DNA of 64,000 nt from Anaerohalosphaera lusitana. Its GTDB lineage: Bacteria > Planctomycetota > Phycisphaerae > Sedimentisphaerales > Anaerohalosphaeraceae. The stretch is taken from the NCBI RefSeq assembly GCF_002007645.1, contig NZ_CP019791.1:4146593-4210592 (forward strand), written 5' to 3'. Below, in pieces: positions 45,936 to 57,781 of this stretch. The position numbers and the translations under genes were made by a program. Position 1 is the stretch's first letter, and each line of letters starts with the position of its first letter. Under the pieces are notes generated by a model that ran no database searches, was not told the DNA's origin, and saw only the letters and a program-made list of their open reading frames with translations.

Positions 45936-47243
45936 GGTTCATCACGGAATACCGGGGAAATAGACATCAACGGCAGTACTTTGTAGCTTTTAGTTACCCG
46001 ACTATTAGCTCAAAGGAGACTGCCGTTGACTGGACAACATCTTATCAAAAAACTCGGCCAATGGGAAGGATATCGTGTTGGAACTGTTGGGCCTGCTAAG
46101 AAAGGCCGTGAATTCTGGGTCGAATTGATCCCGGAAAATGGATTCGGAACCTGTGACGGCTGCGGCCAGGAATGCAGCAGCGTTCACGAGACCGTCCAGC
46201 GTTGGATCCGCGATCTGCCGGTCTTCGACAAGACTACCCACCTGCTCGTTCACCGAAGGCGTCTGCTGTGCCCCAGATGCGGGCCGAAGCTTGAACGAAT
46301 CTCCTGGCTGGACCGTTACAGCCGCCACACCACCCGGCTGGTAGAATCGGTCGCCCGGCTGTGTGATGTGATGAGCATAAAGCATGTGTCTGAGTATTTT
46401 TCGCTGTCCTGGTCGACCGTCAAGGACATCCACAAGCGGCATCTCAAGAAGAAGCTGGGCCCTGTCGACCTGTCGAATGTGGAGCTGCTGGCGATGGATG
46501 AATTCGCCATTCAAAAGGGCCACAGATATGCAACGGTTATCATCGATCCGACCTGCAAGAAAGTGCTCTGGGTGGGCCGAGGGCGTTCGAGAGCCTCTAT
46601 CAGGCCATTCTTCGAAATGCTCGGCGACCGCTGCAAAGACATCAAAGCAGTAGCAATGGACATGAACGCCAGCTTCGAGCAGGAGGTTCAGCTGCATTGT
46701 CCGCAGGCAGAAATAGTTTATGATCTGTTCCATGTCGTGGCCAAGTACGGCCGTGAAGTTATCGATCGGGTCAGGGTCGATCAGGCCAATCGACTACGAG
46801 ACGACAAGCCCGCCCGCAGGGTGATCAAGGGCTCGCGCTGGCTGCTGCTTCGCAATCGTGAGAACATCGAAAAGCCTGAGGACCTGGTTCGCCTCGATGA
46901 GCTGTTGGCCGCCAACGAGTCGCTGATGACGACCTACGTGATGAAGGATGATCTCAAGCTGCTGTGGAATCTGAGCGATCGCAAGGCCGCCGAATCGTGC
47001 TGGGGTCAGTGGCTCGATCGAGCCATGCAAAGCGGGATTGAGCCGCTGATGAAGTTTGCCAAAAGGCTGAGCAAATACGCCGCCGGAATCATCGCACACA
47101 GCAGATGGCCGCTGCATACGTCACTGCTGGAGGGGATCAATAACAAGATCAAAACCATCAAGCGACAGGCATACGGCTATCGAGACGATGAATATTTCTT
47201 CCTGAGAATAAGAGCAGCATTCCCCGGTATTCCGTGATGAACC
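45936..47243 (+). mobile_element. ISL3-family insertion sequence
   Basis: A 1308-bp element with perfect 24-bp inverted repeats at 45936-45959 and 47220-47243 (outer end GGTTCATCACGGAATACC). Exact 8-bp direct repeats TAAAAAAA flank it (45928-45935 and 47244-47251), as expected for ISL3. The target was the T-tract of the chemoreceptor terminator on the other strand. Only about 60 bp separate it from the IS5 element. Confidence 0.95.
46026..47237 (+). CDS. ISL3-family transposase
   Basis: A 403-residue transposase. The N-terminal zinc-binding part has CDGCGQEC and CPRCGPKLER; a helix-turn-helix follows (MSIKHVSEYFSLSWSTVKDI). The DDE domain shows LLAMDEFAIQKGHRY, VAMDMNASFEQEV and SLLEGINNKIKTIKRQAYGY. 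The final codons and the stop (TGA 47235-47237) lie within the right inverted repeat, so the repeat sequence itself is coding. The frame is intact. Confidence 0.93.
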   Translation: MTGQHLIKKLGQWEGYRVGTVGPAKKGREFWVELIPENGFGTCDGCGQECSSVHETVQRWIRDLPVFDKTTHLLVHRRRLLCPRCGPKLERISWLDRYSRHTTRLVESVARLCDVMSIKHVSEYFSLSWSTVKDIHKRHLKKKLGPVDLSNVELLAMDEFAIQKGHRYATVIIDPTCKKVLWVGRGRSRASIRPFFEMLGDRCKDIKAVAMDMNASFEQEVQLHCPQAEIVYDLFHVVAKYGREVIDRVRVDQANRLRDDKPARRVIKGSRWLLLRNRENIEKPEDLVRLDELLAANESLMTTYVMKDDLKLLWNLSDRKAAESCWGQWLDRAMQSGIEPLMKFAKRLSKYAAGIIAHSRWPLHTSLLEGINNKIKTIKRQAYGYRDDEYFFLRIRAAFPGIP

Positions 47244-49547: not shown

Positions 49548-50318
49548 CTAACCCCCAAACCGACCCTCAAATTCCCGCACAACCTCCCCCAGCTCCACAT
49601 CAAGGCGCCTCTCCGCCTCGGCCCGAATTTCCCCCGGCACACCCCCGTAAAACGCCTCCGCAACCGCCCCCGCCATACACGCCTGCGTATCACTGTCCCC
49701 GCCCAGCGAAACCGCCTTGCGAACCGCATCCTCAAACCCCTCCGACTCCCCGAACGCGATCATCGCCTCCGGCACACTGCCCGCACAACTGGAATCGAAC
49801 CCATAACCCGGACGTATCTCGTCCAGCCGCCTGTCCAGATCATACTCGAACCGTGCCCCCACCTCCGCCACTATCTCCGCCTTGCTAAACCCTCGCCTGG
49901 CCAGATACACCGCCATCGCGACAGCCTGCGCACCCTTGATTCCCTCCGGATGATCATGCGTCACCGCCGCACTTCGCTCCGCCTCTTTCAAAACCTCCTC
50001 CACGCTCTCAAACGCCCACGCCACCGGACTCACCCGCATCGCCGAACCGTTCCCCCAGCTCCCGTACGCCCCCATCGAATCGCTCCTCAGCCACTTCGCA
50101 AAGTTCCCGCCGTACCCCGCACCGGGCCACTTCCTCCCGAACCGCTTATACGCAACCCCGTAATCCTCACCCCGCAATATCGCCCACGCCGTCGCCACCG
50201 TCAAAACCGTATCATCCGTAAACCGACACCCTGCCCCGAACAATTCGAAATCCTCCCGCTTCGTCCCCCGCCACTCAAACACCGACCCGACAATATCACC
50301 AACGATCGCCCCGATCAT
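49548..50318 (-). CDS. ADP-ribosylglycohydrolase family protein
   Basis: A 256-residue all-alpha dimetal hydrolase of the DraG/ARH family, which removes ADP-ribose from proteins or small molecules. ATG 50318 has GGAGGG 6 nt upstream; the longer frame to 50402 overlaps the upstream gene's end and lacks the family start. Metal-site motifs: GDIVGSVFEW, RFTDDTVLTVA and LGGDSDTQACMAG. It follows the propeller/di-heme gene by about 80 bp on the same strand and is the last gene of that run. No ADP-ribosyltransferase is in the window, so the substrate is unknown. Confidence 0.9.
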   Translation of the reverse strand: MIGAIVGDIVGSVFEWRGTKREDFELFGAGCRFTDDTVLTVATAWAILRGEDYGVAYKRFGRKWPGAGYGGNFAKWLRSDSMGAYGSWGNGSAMRVSPVAWAFESVEEVLKEAERSAAVTHDHPEGIKGAQAVAMAVYLARRGFSKAEIVAEVGARFEYDLDRRLDEIRPGYGFDSSCAGSVPEAMIAFGESEGFEDAVRKAVSLGGDSDTQACMAGAVAEAFYGGVPGEIRAEAERRLDVELGEVVREFEGRFGG

Positions 50319-50398
50319 GTTCCCTCCGCAAATCTCAAAATCACAGCAACGAACAGCACCTCGCACCTCCCCCACCATACAACCACAGCACTCCCCCG

Positions 50399-52204
50399 TC
50401 AAAGACTCAGCACATACTCCACCAGATCACGCACCTCCTGCTCACTCAGCCCGCTCGTCCTGCCGTGCCTGTCACCCTCGTTATGTTCCGTGAACACCTC
50501 CGCAAGCTCCGCCGCCCTGCCGTCGAACAGATACGGCGCCGTCCGCCAAAGCTCCACAAGCGTCGGCGTTTCCAACTCACCAACCGACTCCTCACCCGTC
50601 CAAACGTCATGCTTTTTCATGTCAGTAAAATATTCACCCGAATGACAGTGCCCGCACCCCGCTGTCTCAAAGATGTTCTTACCCCGTACCGCCGACTCAC
50701 TGAGTTCCCCGTCCACCAGCCGCGGACTCGCCACAGGCCTAAGCGACTTCAAATACGCATCTATCGCCCGCGCCTTCTCCTCGTCCACCTCGGCAAACTG
50801 GATATGCCTGATCCCCGCGCGAACCGCAACCTCCGCACTCGCCCGCACGCCCGTTATCATCGCCGCCCCGGTCTCGTGACTCGCCAGCAGACTCTTCGTG
50901 TTCTTCGGATTCCCGATCCCGTCATTCAAAAGATCCCAGTTCAGCGCATCCGTCCTCGCCTCGCCCGGATGACAGCTCGCACAGCTCTGCCATCCCTGAA
51001 AGCAAAGCCTCGCATCGTTGAAATACATCTCGCCCTTCCGCACCAGCGACATCTCACCCGCCTCACCGAGCGACACAGATGCAGCCGCTCCGTCTGCTAG
51101 ACCAACAACCGCAACACTGTCCGAAAAATACTCAGCCGCAAAAACCTTCCCCCCGCCAACCGCAACACCCCTCGGCCCAACACCCTTCAACTTGATACGC
51201 CGCCTGATCCCCCGCAAAAACGACATGTCGTTCTTGACCGCGTCCGCACTCGACGTAACCTCCGTCACCTTCATCCCCCGCTCGGCCCGACTCAGCCTCT
51301 CATGCATCGCCTGCCTGTAGATCACACTGACCTCCCCCGTCCCCGCATGACTGACGCACAAAAACTTTCCGTCATCCGAACAATCCACGCCCCACGGATT
51401 CGCCGCCCCCGCCGCGACATCGTCCAGCAAAACGGTATTCACCAGCTCGCGCTCGTCCACATCTATCACACTCACAGCGTTCGTATTCATCCACCCACGC
51501 TGCAACTGCGTCGTCGGCAACTGGAACCGCGCCAGCACATGCGTCACATAAACGAACTCCCCGTCAGGCGATAAACACATGCCATGAAGATCGACACTCC
51601 CGTTCGGCAGCGCAATGTTTTCGCACACCAACCCCCTCTTGACATCCACCACCGAAACGCACGCCGCCACATGTTCCTCATCAGCCGCTCCCGCAGGCAG
51701 TAAATTCGCAACGAAAAGATATTTCCCGTCCCGCGAAACAGCCACCGCCACCGGCTCACGCGCAACAACAACCCGCGCCCGCTCCTTCATCCTCCCCGCA
51801 TCGATCACAGATACATCATCACTGAACCGATTGCACACAAACACCGTCCCCCCGTCCGCACTTACCTCAACCGCGCCCGGCGTATGACCCACCCGAACCG
51901 AACCGACTATCTCACCGCTGCCCGCATCGATCTTCAACAGCTTACCGTCAACCCCACCGACCGCGGCATACAAATACTTACCATCCGCAGACACAGCAAA
52001 CCCGCCGCACTCACTGCCAATATCTATCTGCCGCTCAACCTCCAGCAACTCCGCGCCAATAACCGCGATCCGCCCCGCAGCCGACTCGTTCACATAAATC
52101 TTCCCACCCGGACCATCGACCACATCCGAAGGCGCCGAATACTCCGCCGCCGAACCAGATACTGCTGCCGCAAAAACCAAAACAATCACAAAGATCGATC
52201 TCAT
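50399..52204 (-). CDS. YVTN beta-propeller fused to a di-heme MauG/cytochrome-c-peroxidase-like domain
   Basis: About 601 residues from ATG 52204 (AGAGG 7 nt upstream), starting with a signal peptide (RSIFVIVLVFAAAVSGSAA), so periplasmic. Residues about 25-395 are YVTN/SMP-type propeller repeats (AVSADGKYLYAAVGG, EVSADGGTVFVCNR, AVSRDGKYLFVAN). The rest is a di-heme c module: CASCH (Cys408, Cys411, His412) followed by DALNWDLLNDGIGNPKNTKS, and CGHCH (Cys517, Cys520, His521) with TPTLVELWRTAPYLFDGRA. This is the MauG/bacterial peroxidase arrangement. Propeller plus di-heme peroxidase are also the beta and gamma parts of hydrazine synthase, and an HzsA-like gene lies 35 bp upstream. Actual reaction unknown. 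Confidence 0.85.
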   Translation of the reverse strand: MRSIFVIVLVFAAAVSGSAAEYSAPSDVVDGPGGKIYVNESAAGRIAVIGAELLEVERQIDIGSECGGFAVSADGKYLYAAVGGVDGKLLKIDAGSGEIVGSVRVGHTPGAVEVSADGGTVFVCNRFSDDVSVIDAGRMKERARVVVAREPVAVAVSRDGKYLFVANLLPAGAADEEHVAACVSVVDVKRGLVCENIALPNGSVDLHGMCLSPDGEFVYVTHVLARFQLPTTQLQRGWMNTNAVSVIDVDERELVNTVLLDDVAAGAANPWGVDCSDDGKFLCVSHAGTGEVSVIYRQAMHERLSRAERGMKVTEVTSSADAVKNDMSFLRGIRRRIKLKGVGPRGVAVGGGKVFAAEYFSDSVAVVGLADGAAASVSLGEAGEMSLVRKGEMYFNDARLCFQGWQSCASCHPGEARTDALNWDLLNDGIGNPKNTKSLLASHETGAAMITGVRASAEVAVRAGIRHIQFAEVDEEKARAIDAYLKSLRPVASPRLVDGELSESAVRGKNIFETAGCGHCHSGEYFTDMKKHDVWTGEESVGELETPTLVELWRTAPYLFDGRAAELAEVFTEHNEGDRHGRTSGLSEQEVRDLVEYVLSL

Positions 52205-52239
52205 TTGCATACCTCTATAACTCATACCCGTCACCCAAC

Positions 52240-55200
52240 TTAATCTTCACAAATAACCCTGAAACCAACATTATACACCTTCTGCCATGGCTCATACCCC
52301 AGCCGATACCCAGCCGTCGCCCTCTTTGGCCTGTCGCGCCACGACCCGCCGCGTACCACCTTTTTGCCCTGATCTTCACCCCCGCCATAGGGCCCCATCA
52401 TACTGCTCGTCCATTCCGCGACATTGCCGTGCATATCATAAAGGCCCCACGCATTCGCCTCATACTTACCAACATCACTCGCAACCATCGCTCCGTCATC
52501 AACACTGTCCACTCTCGGCACAAAAGCATACCTCGGGCCCGGATTTGCGATCGGCTTAGGATCAACACCGCTCACCGCAAGCTTCTTCAGACTCACGTCC
52601 GCAAGATTCGCAAACTTCCCGAAGTCCGTATCGGCCGAACCGTACAACATACTCTCCGCACTGCCCGCACGACACGCCCACTCCCACTGCGCCTCGCTCG
52701 GCAATGAAAACTTCTTACCCGTCTTCTCACTAAGCCATTCACAGAACGCTCTCGCCTCTTCCCACGACACCCTGATCACGGGCTGCCCAGGCCGATTCGC
52801 CGGATAACCCGGCCGCGTATGATCCTTCCACTGCTGATCGTAATACCTGCTGTCGTGCCCCGGATCGAATACGTTGTACTGCGCATTCGTCACCTCAGTC
52901 TGGCCCATCCAGAACCCATCTTCAACCTTCGCAACCTCCCCCGGCCGGGCATCAGGATCATGAGGATCGCCCATCACAAATTCACCCGCCGGCACATACA
53001 CCAGCTTCAGCTTCAACCCACCCCCAAGCTCGACAACCCTGCGAACCTCATCCCCCGCCTGCTCCTGCTGCATCTTCTCCGCAGTCTCAGCATCAAACGC
53101 CCAGTCCAACCCAGCATCGCCACCGGCCGTCTGCACCTCCGCCTTTTTCGCAGGCATTACAGGCTCAATCTCCCTTCCCTTCGCCTGCTCCACCAGCTCC
53201 AGATACTCCCCCTCAGGGTCGTCATCCACGAACGCATACTTCTTCTGCAGCTCGAGCCGGTACTGTCTCTGATCGTGCCCCTTCCACTTCCCCGGCATCC
53301 ACGCCCCGCCGTGCGGCACGTTCAGATCGATCCACGCATAGATCTTCTCCCATTCCTCATCGCTCAACTCAACCCCGTGATGCCCCTTCACCAGCATCTG
53401 CACCAGCTCACTCGTGCTCGCATGATACTCCATCGGCTCGAGTATATGATAGTCACTCTCAGGACCAGGCCTACGCACATACGGATGCAGCGAATTATAA
53501 GAATCATCCGCCCAGTGATTCAGCCCGTTCCCCCGCGCGACAAACTTGGGCTTCTCCCCCTTCGTATCCTCTCCATGACAACCCGCACACTTGCGATCCA
53601 GCACAGGCTGCACCTCGTACCTGAACGTGAACGGCCTCGCCTCCCCGCCCCACGGCTCGATCATGTCAGGCTCCCGCTGAGCCGCCGCAGTCTGCTTGCC
53701 CGGCGACACCATATTCTGCGACTCATGACAGCCCACACACGAAACGTTCTCACCCGGCATACCCACGAACCAGCTCCGTATCAACTGCATCGCCCGCCCC
53801 TTCTCATCCAGCGGCTGCAGCGAAACAGGCCTGTTCGCCGGCACCTTGAACATCGCCGACCCGTCCTCCTCAACCGGCACCGTCCCAAGTATCCGCTTAA
53901 CGTCCCAGCCGCCCTCATTACTTATCGCGTTATGTCCACCCGTCCCCAGGTAACAATAATGATACGAAAACAGCCGCAGCTCCTTCACCGCACCCCGCGG
54001 CACACCCGCAAGCCCTGGCCCCTCGTATATGTCCGTTATATAAACCGTCGCATACTTCTCATCCTCAACAACCCTGCTCGGAACCACCGGCGGCTTCTCC
54101 CTCGCCCGCAAGGGCAATGGCTCCAGCAATGCCGAATCCTCGACCTCCTTGATAAGCGTCACATTGTCAAACACATCAACAAGGTATATCCCCCAAAGCG
54201 AATTCCGATCCAGCTTCCCCGCCGCCAGAAAATACTTCTCGCTCAGCGGATACGGATGCAGAAACTGAGGCCACACACCGTCCACCAGTCGATCCGCGAT
54301 CTTGCCCGCAACATCGTCCCTGCCCGGTATCTCCGCGATTACGCCCTTTGCCTCGCGTCTGCTCTTGCTCGGATCGAACAGCAGAAGCCTCCCAGACTTC
54401 GCCGTCCCGTGATGCCCGCTCACGATCCCCACGAACTTAGTCGCATCCCCCGGCACAGGCCTCGCAAAAAACAGCGAGTTCGGCCAGTACGAATTGCTCC
54501 CGTAAAACTCCTTCTGCTCCGTTCCGTCCGGATTACAACTGAAAAGTATCCGCGTGAAATAATGCGCCGTATCCGTATACTCCCACCGCGTAAACATCAA
54601 CCGCCCATCGTTCATCACCGTCGGGTTCCATATCTGATCCTGATCGAACGTCAGACGTCGAACAGTCCCCGCCGAACTGTCCCACAGATACATGTTCCCC
54701 ACAGGCGACCCGCCGCCGATACAAGGCACACCCGCGATCGGCGCCGTCGAAACGAACGCAACATTCCCGTCCGGCAGATAGCACGCGTCATGATTGTCAA
54801 TATCCTTCTCGCCTATCAACGGAAGCTGCCTCAACCCCTCGCCCGAAACACTCACCTCAAATATCTGCCACGTCCCGTCATCCGCCGGCATCGAAAACAG
54901 CACCCGCTCACCCCCAAAGTGCAGATCCACATCACCAACGAACCGTCCGCCATCGGGCCGAAACACCGTCTCAACACTCCCGTCTTCAAGCGACAACGCC
55001 GCTATTTCGTTGTCCCACCCCCGCTGGGGCAGATGCGAATTGTTCAGCCAGTTGTTCACCATCCCAAGCTGATTACCCATAACTCGCCGCGCACGCTTCG
55101 GATCATACATCCGCCGAACCACCAACAGCTTATCAAAATCCAGCAGCGGATTCGCAAGCAGCGCCCCACGTCCCGCCTCGACCATCCGCTCCGCCGTCGC

Positions 55201-55509
55201 AACCGCCCCCGCATCCCCGCTCCGGACCTTCTGCAGCACCTCCCCCTTCTGCTCACCTGCCGCACGCAGCCGCGCAAGCACATCCTCCGCACCCTCAAAC
55301 TCCTCACCGAAACTCGCCCGCATATCCTCAACACCCGCCGCGACCTTCGCAAAATCCATCCGCTCAAGCCGCCGCTCCGCCTCACGCGCACGCTGCTTCG
55401 ACACCGCCCCAAACGTCACACCCGCACAATAGACCATCACCAGCCCCAGCAACCCAGCCGCGCCCATACGACCACCGGCAAAATCTCTCATCGCCTTGAC
55501 TAACCCCAT
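52240..55509 (-). CDS. HzsA-like di-heme protein with C-terminal SUMF1/FGE-like domain
   Basis: A 1089-residue exported protein: signal segment about 15-36, helical stretch to 120, then a TolB-like propeller (DLHFGGERVLFSMPADDGTW, CYLPDGNVAFVST, NDGRLMFTRWEYTDTAHYFT). Next is a middle domain like that of hydrazine synthase alpha (LRLFSYHYCYLGTGGHN; GSAMFKVPANRPVSLQPLDE) with two c-type hemes, CVGCH (591-595) and CAGCH (641-645). From about 836 comes a formylglycine-generating-enzyme fold (YVPAGEFVMGD ... MHGNVAEWT ... VVRGGSWRDRP ... GFRVICED). The Cys pair of true sulfatase-activating enzymes is absent from the end, so that domain is probably binding or structural. No anammox genes are visible, so a hydrazine role is not claimed. 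Confidence 0.8.
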   Translation of the reverse strand: MGLVKAMRDFAGGRMGAAGLLGLVMVYCAGVTFGAVSKQRAREAERRLERMDFAKVAAGVEDMRASFGEEFEGAEDVLARLRAAGEQKGEVLQKVRSGDAGAVATAERMVEAGRGALLANPLLDFDKLLVVRRMYDPKRARRVMGNQLGMVNNWLNNSHLPQRGWDNEIAALSLEDGSVETVFRPDGGRFVGDVDLHFGGERVLFSMPADDGTWQIFEVSVSGEGLRQLPLIGEKDIDNHDACYLPDGNVAFVSTAPIAGVPCIGGGSPVGNMYLWDSSAGTVRRLTFDQDQIWNPTVMNDGRLMFTRWEYTDTAHYFTRILFSCNPDGTEQKEFYGSNSYWPNSLFFARPVPGDATKFVGIVSGHHGTAKSGRLLLFDPSKSRREAKGVIAEIPGRDDVAGKIADRLVDGVWPQFLHPYPLSEKYFLAAGKLDRNSLWGIYLVDVFDNVTLIKEVEDSALLEPLPLRAREKPPVVPSRVVEDEKYATVYITDIYEGPGLAGVPRGAVKELRLFSYHYCYLGTGGHNAISNEGGWDVKRILGTVPVEEDGSAMFKVPANRPVSLQPLDEKGRAMQLIRSWFVGMPGENVSCVGCHESQNMVSPGKQTAAAQREPDMIEPWGGEARPFTFRYEVQPVLDRKCAGCHGEDTKGEKPKFVARGNGLNHWADDSYNSLHPYVRRPGPESDYHILEPMEYHASTSELVQMLVKGHHGVELSDEEWEKIYAWIDLNVPHGGAWMPGKWKGHDQRQYRLELQKKYAFVDDDPEGEYLELVEQAKGREIEPVMPAKKAEVQTAGGDAGLDWAFDAETAEKMQQEQAGDEVRRVVELGGGLKLKLVYVPAGEFVMGDPHDPDARPGEVAKVEDGFWMGQTEVTNAQYNVFDPGHDSRYYDQQWKDHTRPGYPANRPGQPVIRVSWEEARAFCEWLSEKTGKKFSLPSEAQWEWACRAGSAESMLYGSADTDFGKFANLADVSLKKLAVSGVDPKPIANPGPRYAFVPRVDSVDDGAMVASDVGKYEANAWGLYDMHGNVAEWTSSMMGPYGGGEDQGKKVVRGGSWRDRPKRATAGYRLGYEPWQKVYNVGFRVICED

Positions 55510-55562: not shown

Positions 55563-56567
55563 CTATTGCGGCTCACCAAGTCCTTCCACATCACTGCGAA
55601 TTTTCGCAATATCCGACTCCGCAAGCTCCAGCCCGCCAGCCTTCGCGTTATCCAAAGTCTGATCGACCCGCCTCGCACCGCACAGCACATGCGTCACACC
55701 TCTCTGCTGCGCCGTCCACGCGACAACCAACTGCGCCAGCGTACACGAATACTTCTCCGTCAGGCCCTTCCAGCCCGCCAGCATATCCAGTATCTTCGGC
55801 CGATTCACCTTCTTGAACCACGGATTCCAATCCTCATTGCTCCGCCACTCGTCCTCGCCGAAATCACGATCCATACCGACCTTACCCGTCAGCAGGCCCT
55901 GCTCCAGCGACATATACGTAAGCGTCGAAACGTTATTCTCCGCACAGAACGGCAGTATATTCTCCTCCGGCTCACGATACAGCATGCTGTACCGGAACTG
56001 ATCGCTCACGATTTCGCCGTGCTGCATATTCTCCTTCAGCTCATCAACCGAAACGTTCGACACGCCTATCGCCCGGATCTTCCCCTGATCCTTCAGTTTG
56101 TTCAGACACGCCATTGTATCCTCTATCGGCGTCTTCTCAGGCTCAACCGCAGGCCAGTGCGTCTGATACAGATCGATCCGATCAGTCCCAAGCCGCTTCA
56201 AACTGTCCTCGATCTCTATCTCGATCGTATCAGGCCTCAGACTCTTGAACACCTTCTCACCATCGAAAGGCCCAAGCAGCGAACCCCTCTCGTCGTGCCA
56301 CCACAGTCCGCATTTCGTTGCAAGTATCACCTCGTCCCTGCGTCCCTTGATCGCCTTGCCCACAACCTCCTCACTCCTGCCGAAACCATACAGCGGCGCA
56401 GTATCTACCAGATTGATCCCCTCGTCCAGCGAAGCATGCACCACCCGGATCGACTCATTATCATCCGGCTCCTTGCCCCATATACTTCCGCCCCCCATAA
56501 CCCACGTACCAAGTCCGACGATCGACGCGTTCATGTCCGTATTGCCAAGCTGCCTGTACTTCATCAA
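55563..56567 (-). CDS. Aldo/keto reductase
   Basis: A 334-residue NAD(P)H-dependent oxidoreductase with an (alpha/beta)8 barrel. The catalytic tetrad is visible: Asp55 and Tyr60 (NLVDTAPLYGFG), Lys85 (ILATKCG), His137 (DLYQTHWP). GVSNVSVDEL and a C-terminal GARRVDQTLDNAKA cofactor-binding stretch match the YajO/Tas-like group. The carbonyl substrate is unknown. It lies 53 bp before the HzsA-like gene and 121 bp after the IclR regulator on the same strand, suggesting one transcription unit, perhaps for a sugar or sugar-derived compound. Confidence 0.9.
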   Translation of the reverse strand: MMKYRQLGNTDMNASIVGLGTWVMGGGSIWGKEPDDNESIRVVHASLDEGINLVDTAPLYGFGRSEEVVGKAIKGRRDEVILATKCGLWWHDERGSLLGPFDGEKVFKSLRPDTIEIEIEDSLKRLGTDRIDLYQTHWPAVEPEKTPIEDTMACLNKLKDQGKIRAIGVSNVSVDELKENMQHGEIVSDQFRYSMLYREPEENILPFCAENNVSTLTYMSLEQGLLTGKVGMDRDFGEDEWRSNEDWNPWFKKVNRPKILDMLAGWKGLTEKYSCTLAQLVVAWTAQQRGVTHVLCGARRVDQTLDNAKAGGLELAESDIAKIRSDVEGLGEPQ

Positions 56568-56688: not shown

Positions 56689-57477
56689 TTACTGCGCGGG
56701 CCCGTATCCAAGCCTCCGCGATATCTGCCTCGCATACTCAACCGTTTTCCTCCCGGCCTCCTCCAGACCAGCCTTTTCCATCCGTTCGCTCGGCCCGGTT
56801 GACCATATACTCGCAACCGGATACCCGTGCTGATCCAGAACCGCCGCTCCCACGCACCGCACGCCCTCCACCTCTTCCGCCCTGTCTATCGCATACCCAG
56901 CCTCCCGCACTCGATCGAGCTCCTCATGCATCGCACCCTTATCCGTGATCGTATTGTCATTATACCGTTTCAGCTCCACCCGTTCCAGCAGCATCTCCCG
57001 CTCCCTAGCCGGTAAAAAGGCCCACATCGCCTTGCCCGGCGCACTTGCATGCAGCGGAAACCGCCTGCCCGGATTGACCATAAACTTGAAAAGATGACTC
57101 CCCACGACCTGCTCCAGCACCACCCCGTAAGTGCCCGACAATATCCCGATAAGCACCGTCTCTCGCACCTCGTCCCGAAGCTCCCGCATTATGTCCAGTG
57201 ATTTCTCCACCAGGCTGTACTCCGAAACCGCCCCATAACCCAGCGTAAGCATCTTATGCGTCAGCGTAAAAACCTTCGTATCATCCGCTCGCCTCAGATA
57301 CCCCCGATCCAGCAAAGTCTTAGTAATCCTGAAAACGCTGTTCTTCGGATACCCCAGCTTCTCAACCACTGAAGTCAGACTCAGCCCCTCACCATGCTCC
57401 GACAGAAGCTCCAGTATCTCAAGCGCACGCTCCAGATTCGGCACATGATACTTTGATGATTCCCCGTTCCCATTCAT
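56689..57477 (-). CDS. IclR-family transcriptional regulator
   Basis: A 262-residue regulator from ATG 57477; the longer frame adds hydrophobic, non-family sequence. Residues about 10-75 are the winged helix (ERALEILELLSEHGEGLSLT, then YPKNSVFRITKTLLDRGYLR). The C-terminal effector domain has SLVEKSLDIMRELRDEVRET, PLHASAPGKAMWAFLP, EVEGVRCVGAAVLDQHGYPV. IclR proteins usually sense small carbon compounds and control adjacent catabolic genes. Being first in the run IclR-AKR-HzsA-like-propeller, it probably controls that group. A short inverted repeat upstream is a candidate operator. Confidence 0.88.
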   Translation of the reverse strand: MNGNGESSKYHVPNLERALEILELLSEHGEGLSLTSVVEKLGYPKNSVFRITKTLLDRGYLRRADDTKVFTLTHKMLTLGYGAVSEYSLVEKSLDIMRELRDEVRETVLIGILSGTYGVVLEQVVGSHLFKFMVNPGRRFPLHASAPGKAMWAFLPAREREMLLERVELKRYNDNTITDKGAMHEELDRVREAGYAIDRAEEVEGVRCVGAAVLDQHGYPVASIWSTGPSERMEKAGLEEAGRKTVEYARQISRRLGYGPAQ

Positions 57478-57522
57478 AAATATGCTCTCAAAAAACCACC
57501 ACACACAGCCAGTTTTATATAA

Positions 57523-57535
57523 CAAACCAAGTTTG
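57523..57535 (-). promoter_or_regulatory. Short inverted repeat upstream of the IclR gene
   Basis: CAAAC-CAA-GTTTG, 46 bp before the IclR start, adjacent to TATATAAAA on the minus strand, which could be a -10 region. Size and position suit an autoregulatory operator. The arms are short, so chance is possible. Confidence 0.3.
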
Positions 57536-57781
57536 ACAAGCAGTATAACATCCCACCCGCCCATGTCAACTGCATAAATAGCGGCACTCAACCAAACAGC
57601 CCCCAATGACGAATTTTTCAAAAACCCTGTAACATCCCCCACCAAACTGCGTCTATACAGTCAGCAAAATTAACTAAAAACAGGACAACAACCTCTCACA
57701 GCTCCGGAAAATGCATGACAACCCGACAAAAATCTGATATTTTCAGTGCCGCATCGTTTTTCCGAACAGAAAGGTTCACAA

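Follow-up and report, generated by a model that had tools for sequence, protein, structure and literature searches.

A hydrazine synthase-like gene pair with a formylglycine-generating enzyme-like fusion in Anaerohalosphaera lusitana

Introduction

To our knowledge, hydrazine synthase (HZS) has so far been regarded as unique to anaerobic ammonium-oxidizing (anammox) bacteria; where it came from is a matter of debate. The gene pair analysed here lies on the minus strand of a 64,000-nucleotide stretch of the Anaerohalosphaera lusitana genome (contig NZ_CP019791.1, positions 4,146,593 to 4,210,592; hereafter the window) and encodes an HZS-alpha-like protein with a C-terminal domain resembling formylglycine-generating enzyme (FGE), followed by a fused beta-gamma protein. 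In the anammox enzyme, heme alpha-I has Tyr591 as a ligand and zinc is bound by His587, whilst heme gamma-I is held by three cysteine bonds with Asp168 nearby (PMC12607021). The third heme-bound cysteine of HZS gamma is numbered Cys165 in PMC12758564, which also reports that the zinc ligand Cys303 is not conserved across all anammox bacteria and that the catalytic tryptophan of MauG and di-heme cytochrome c peroxidase occupies the position that is His144 in HZS gamma.

Phycisphaerae UBA1845, carrying hzsABC-like genes with alpha upstream of a fused beta-gamma, have been proposed as new anammox bacteria (PMC10732223). PMC12758564 sorts co-located HZS homologues into four clades, with alpha beside a fused beta-gamma and two A. 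lusitana clusters in clade IV, finds relatives of beta-gamma among Bacteroidota, reports that key residues are not conserved in clades I-III, and rejects HZS identity for the homologues it examined; its sections 7 and 8 treat the residues of clades I-III and describe the clade IV gene order as taxon-specific. Both papers, dating from 2023 and 2025, describe such pairs in non-anammox bacteria, with two of the clusters from A. lusitana, so the window pair is already known in kind and has probably been reported in this species. What is added here is the branch of FGE-fused alphas and its catabolic cluster: we did not find this branch in print in a literature search restricted to main texts, and SUMF1 is absent from the main text of PMC12758564.

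Results and discussion

Homology to hydrazine synthase

Both genes are homologous to HZS, and chance is excluded as the source of the resemblance. The alpha-FGE gene (52240-55509, minus strand, 1089 amino acids) encodes, in order, N-terminal helices, a beta-propeller, an HZS_alpha middle domain (residues 505-595, 53725-53997; PF18582, E 8.3e-33) that ends in the heme alpha-I motif CVGCH (residues 591-595, 53725-53739), the heme alpha-II motif CAGCH (residues 641-645, 53575-53589), and a SUMF1/FGE-like domain (residues 835-1085, 52255-53007; PF03781 FGE-sulfatase, E 2e-39); a cytochrome c region is also among its Pfam matches. The beta-gamma gene (50399-52234, minus strand, 611 amino acids) fuses a seven-bladed YVTN-type propeller to a di-heme MauG/peroxidase-like module with the motifs CASCH for heme gamma-I (residues 418-422, 50969-50983) and CGHCH for heme gamma-II (residues 527-531, 50642-50656). 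Its Pfam matches are CCP_MauG and Cytochrom_C, with PF03150 at E 5.3e-10 and 40.6 bits against a cut-off of 25.6. This is the architecture that a first-pass annotation had described from the letters of the window, and open reading frame, Pfam, motifs and predicted model agree on it for alpha, as do Pfam and structure matches by sequence for beta-gamma. The spacing of 35 bp given there holds if Met11 starts beta-gamma, but the longest open reading frame of this gene begins 5 nucleotides past the alpha-FGE stop. Judged by eye, both proteins start with a hydrophobic stretch resembling an export signal.

By sequence, HZS beta (E 6.3e-30) is the closest solved structure to beta-gamma and HZS gamma (E 3.9e-27) the next, and alpha matches HZS alpha only across residues 524-603 (E 2e-7), ranked under several SUMF1-like structures. 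The predicted alpha model, built from an alignment of 59 sequences (mean predicted local distance difference test score (pLDDT) 90.5, predicted template modelling score (pTM) 0.88), superposes on chain A of the Kuenenia HZS structure (PDB 5C2V) with Z 33.1 and a root-mean-square deviation (rmsd) of 3.0 over 555 residues. For the beta part of the beta-gamma model (alignment of 20 sequences, pLDDT 81.7, pTM 0.84), the match to 5C2V chain B reaches Z 44.0 and rmsd 2.7 over 337 residues. The homology to HZS proposed in the first-pass annotation, which had named structure prediction of the single proteins as a check, is thereby borne out. The gamma part of the model contains stretches with pLDDT <50 between residues 425 and 480, so its fold assignment rests on sequence; the 5C2V gamma chain was absent among the matches listed for the beta-gamma model, which is no evidence against gamma homology.

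The window pair thus shares with Kuenenia HZS the alpha and beta folds, gamma by sequence, four c-heme motifs and the clustering of the genes. It differs in the extra FGE-like domain, the fusion of beta and gamma, the upstream position of alpha, the lack of the tyrosine ligand and of the gamma Cys165/Asp168 loop, and scores far under the NCBIfam equivalog cut-offs. A multiheme oxidoreductase built like HZS has good support. Our favoured reading, held with slightly less than even confidence, is that this oxidoreductase is probably exported, performs chemistry other than that of HZS and, in the FGE-fused branch, serves carbohydrate or dicarbonyl catabolism.

Residue differences from the anammox enzyme

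Against the NCBIfam models, the window proteins score 46 bits for alpha (cut-off 800), 150.6 for the beta-gamma fusion (1250), 108.1 for beta (560) and 97.4 for gamma (625). Asn599, four residues past the first CxxCH histidine, aligns with anammox Tyr591, as the first-pass annotation had stated. Tyrosine occupies this position in 6/6 anammox sequences, in 0/89 FGE-fused alphas (the set under the stricter of two E-value thresholds; the other yields 90) and in 1/30 others (L034), and 76 of the 89 FGE-fused alphas have asparagine there. By alignment, the zinc ligand Cys303 of HZS corresponds to Asn339 of the window alpha, and the distal His772 of the bis-His heme alpha-II to His711, one residue off the conserved His710. 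The FGE-fused alphas have invariant residues of their own, including Cys263, His316, His366 and His367 (59/59).

In gamma, 8/8 anammox sequences have Cys165 and Asp168, and 50/50 non-anammox sequences show a gap there in the alignment. Direct inspection of the loop found a cysteine in eight of these 50, six times as QCG, which fits the clade I cysteine reported in PMC12758564; the window protein has none between residues 452 and 485. At the place of His144, where the alignment is unsure, the window protein has Ile460 and 15/50 non-anammox sequences have tryptophan. HZS proper was rejected as an identity for the pair, which scores far under the NCBIfam cut-offs and has neither the Tyr591 ligand nor the Cys165/Asp168 loop of gamma.

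A separate cysteine, Cys411 (51002-51004), lies seven residues before the heme gamma-I motif and is found in 37/50 non-anammox and 0/8 anammox sequences. This residue may stand in for the third cysteine bound to the heme.

The FGE-fused alpha branch

The C-terminus of the window alpha has both the SUMF1-like fold and the Pfam domain of FGE. Residues 815-1089 superpose on the Treponema variable protein (2y3c, Z 29.4) and on PvdO (5hha, Z 29.3), two SUMF1/FGE-like proteins without FGE activity; unlike in these, the window domain is fused to an HZS-alpha-like protein. What we take to be the catalytic cysteine positions of human FGE map to Ala1064 and Arg1069. The former column holds cysteine in 7/59 aligned homologues, and the latter in two at most. 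With the catalytic pair missing at these presumed positions, as the first-pass annotation had stated, a working FGE was rejected.

The search for FGE-fused loci used the peptide pattern G[RM][IVL][LVM][YF]xRW[ED]Y and kept the best 80 of at least 586, so that it shapes both the phylum spread and how conserved residues 302-311 look. An alpha with an FGE domain is encoded in 77 of these 80 named loci, and alpha runs off the contig end in the remaining three (L107, L133, and L138). Going by record titles, the loci belong to Planctomycetota, Verrucomicrobia, Lentisphaerae, Kiritimatiellae, Hydrogenedentota, and Bacteroidota, with single records titled Bryobacterales and Chthonomonas. Bacteroidota carriers include Bacteroides cellulosilyticus DSM 14838, B. 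clarus YIT 12056, Parabacteroides massiliensis, Rikenella microfusus, and Millionella massiliensis, and the branch thus reaches gut Bacteroidota. A tree of 125 alphas separates the 90 FGE-fused sequences, together with L107, L133, and L138, from all others at a split with support 1.0; on their side of it, the window alpha groups with the 18 Bacteroidota tips (support 0.77).

HZS-alpha-like proteins are much multiplied in Phycisphaerae relatives, several of which (G006, G013, G032, G037, and others) have at least 20 alpha-like matches.

Co-occurrence of the two genes

A same-strand beta-gamma lies within 7 kb of 22/80 FGE-alpha open reading frames, and of 12/17 in Bacteroidota. Among the matches listed, a strong beta-gamma match was found in 15/15 relatives with an FGE-alpha vs. 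6/25 without one (Fisher p 1.4e-6, uncorrected for ancestry). Beta-gamma is also encoded in 25/25 genomes that carry a sample of 26 from the 80 fetched loci, made up of 18 of the 19 well-flanked loci (5 kb on both sides) without an adjacent beta-gamma and eight of the 14 with one. Furthermore, a distant homologue from Planctomycetota (L061, 4542-9734) is a natural alpha-beta-gamma single chain of 1730 amino acids.

Carbon-metabolism-like genes beside the branch

In B. clarus (L129), a hybrid two-component regulator lies upstream of the cluster, whose order is beta-gamma, a chorismatase-like/Rid protein, an exported cupin, and an alpha with NPCBM and FGE domains, followed by a ResB/CcsA-type cytochrome c assembly protein, a 104-amino-acid protein, Dak1, Dak2, an aldolase, and a Mala_s_1-like protein. 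Profiles of the exported cupin match D-lyxose/D-mannose isomerases (E 1.7e-27) and those of the 104-amino-acid protein (VOC) glyoxalases (E 1.4e-4). The aldolase matches E. coli LsrF with 358 bits and scores 453.8 against an NCBIfam cut-off of 297; the DhaK/DhaL-like kinase parts (Dak1, Dak2) fall under their NCBIfam cut-offs.

Among the 80 named loci, LsrF is found in 18, Dak1 in 16, Dak2 in 17, VOC and cupin in 14 each, and the chorismatase-like gene in 13. In the other locus set, LsrF, Dak1, Dak2, and VOC occur in 1/10 FGE loci (L077) and 0/51 non-FGE loci, the cupin in 1/10 and 1/51 (L025), and the chorismatase-like gene in 0/10 and 3/51, respectively; the counts of cluster genes rise with iterated search. 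The full set of LsrF, Dak1, Dak2, VOC, and cupin occurs in Planctomycetota (L077, L091), Hydrogenedentota (L088), Verrucomicrobiota (L113), and Bacteroidota. Across whole genomes, LsrF exceeds its cut-off in 12/15 FGE-alpha relatives vs. 1/25 others among the matches listed (p 9.5e-7, uncorrected for ancestry), and in 20/25 fetched genomes. An NPCBM carbohydrate-binding-type domain is present in two Bacteroides alphas scanned, and an IclR gene lies beside the Bacteroidota cluster, in L124 directly upstream of beta-gamma. From these neighbours, the NPCBM domain and the regulators, we infer a carbohydrate or dicarbonyl chemistry.

In the window, an aldo-keto reductase gene (55563-56567, minus strand) lies 53 nucleotides upstream of alpha-FGE. 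Its best NCBIfam match is the methylglyoxal reductase YdjG, at 325.4 below the cut-off of 550, and two loci of Hydrogenedentota (L087, L114) have a member of the same family next to FGE-alpha. An IclR-family regulator (56689-57645, minus strand) is possibly in one transcription unit with the pair.

Functional interpretation

Under the favoured reading, alpha and beta-gamma would assemble as in HZS, with the MauG/peroxidase-like gamma-I and alpha-I as the active hemes and gamma-II passing electrons. Heme alpha-I, without the tyrosine, would be ligated by the histidine of its own CxxCH motif, and the FGE-like domain may be a non-catalytic binding domain. Outside the cytoplasm, the complex of the FGE branch would carry out redox chemistry on a carbohydrate or a dicarbonyl derived from sugar. 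Most branch members would then isomerise and phosphorylate the product and cleave it with an LsrF-type thiolase, and in the window organism, without LsrF, it might be reduced by the neighbouring aldo-keto reductase. A more specific version, which we consider clearly less likely than not, is that the HZS-type tetraheme machine of the branch, common to Planctomycetota and gut Bacteroidota, oxidatively rearranges or cleaves an extracytoplasmic sugar to an autoinducer-2-like dicarbonyl, routed to central metabolism by the conserved isomerase, the DhaK-type kinase, and the LsrF-type thiolase. If this were true, HZS would be one offshoot of a family with carbon compounds as the substrates of its other branches. 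If a branch of relatives serves sugar catabolism in culturable gut bacteria, standard genetic and biochemical experiments could address the function of the family as well as the origin of the anammox enzyme.

Several findings weigh against the favoured reading. Obligatory adjacency of alpha and beta-gamma was expected and not borne out, with only 14/33 well-flanked FGE-alpha loci having the genes side by side; by genome, the pair co-occurs, but the genes are neighbours in fewer than half of these loci (a gene-neighbourhood survey had been suggested in the first-pass annotation). Relatives hold up to 23 alpha-like matches each among the matches listed, so alphas far outnumber beta-gammas. In a tree of 73 beta-gamma tips, which left out hits with E >1e-100, lengths outside 300-700 residues and fragments, the window protein belongs to no group of 25 or fewer and does not repeat the placing of its alpha; the trees thus lend no support to a common transfer of the pair, and this mismatch slightly lowers our confidence. 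Neither the co-occurrence nor the LsrF counts carry an ancestry correction, and the E. coli control failed the LsrF cut-off without explanation. An LsrF route was also expected in the window organism, but a genome-wide profile search did not match an LsrF-type thiolase there, which leaves homology as the only link between the cluster argument and the window. Finally, a Pfam scan found no NPCBM domain in the window alpha.

Some of these points suit another account, in which there is no single enzyme: beta-gamma would be a MauG/peroxidase-like electron-transfer or maturation protein for several alphas, and alpha would act alone or serve mainly to bind a ligand. The excess of alphas and the lack of a shared tree placing agree with it, as do the 19/33 well-flanked FGE-alpha loci without a same-strand beta-gamma within 7 kb and several beta-gamma loci without a nearby alpha (e.g. 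L021, L025, L028, L030, and L035). We consider it rather unlikely in view of the fused chain L061, the genome-level co-occurrence, the adjacency both in the window and in the second cluster of its genome, and the precedent of HZS, itself such a complex (PMC12607021). The related complex envisaged in the first-pass annotation retains the support of superposing folds, local adjacency, co-occurrence and the L061 fusion, and is weakened by the adjacency count and the disagreement between trees; on this analysis, assembly of alpha and beta-gamma into one complex is likely.

Descent from a common ancestor with HZS and a MauG/peroxidase-like gamma-I with a normal heme motif would also accord with a pair that handles small nitrogen species, for example by reducing nitric oxide or hydroxylamine, without making hydrazine, but the missing gamma Cys165/Asp168 loop of the window protein and the carbon-metabolism-like neighbour genes make this improbable. 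An unrecognised HZS of a new anammox lineage, as proposed for UBA1845 (PMC10732223), would agree with the order of alpha upstream of a fused beta-gamma and is highly improbable, since the NCBIfam scores, the missing ligands, the spread to gut Bacteroidota and the rejection by PMC12758564 for its own homologues all oppose it, and the anammox proposal is not supported here for the window pair.

Genomic surroundings

Returning to the favoured sugar or dicarbonyl oxidoreductase, the minus-strand gene order in the window is IclR regulator, aldo-keto reductase, alpha-FGE, beta-gamma, and an ADP-ribosylglycohydrolase-like gene (49548-50402, minus strand). The last overlaps beta-gamma by 4 nucleotides, and its part in the system is uncertain. 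The window genome, searched as one contig of 4.25 Mb, has cytochrome c assembly genes (two matches above the PF01578 cut-off), which count in favour of this reading, and encodes two alpha/beta-gamma clusters and one further alpha homologue. This third homologue (G000:C1:295595-295888; L019 7780-10302) has 840 amino acids and lacks the FGE domain, and no beta-gamma was found near it in the 17 kb inspected.

In both Planctomycetota and Bacteroidota, beta-gamma repeatedly has a chorismatase FkbO/Hyg5-like and Rid-domain protein as a neighbour (L028 11549-12769, L067 7454-8575, L129 5114-6211, and others). The window genome has a relative with 32% identity (G000:C1:675752-676819), located away from the pair.

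An ISL3-type transposase gene (46026-47237) lies near the alpha-FGE/beta-gamma pair, and the window genome contains eight near-full copies that are 99-100% identical. The second alpha/beta-gamma cluster is bracketed by two identical copies in the same orientation (L018 12150-13361; G000:C1:2796078-2797286), an arrangement resembling a composite transposon.

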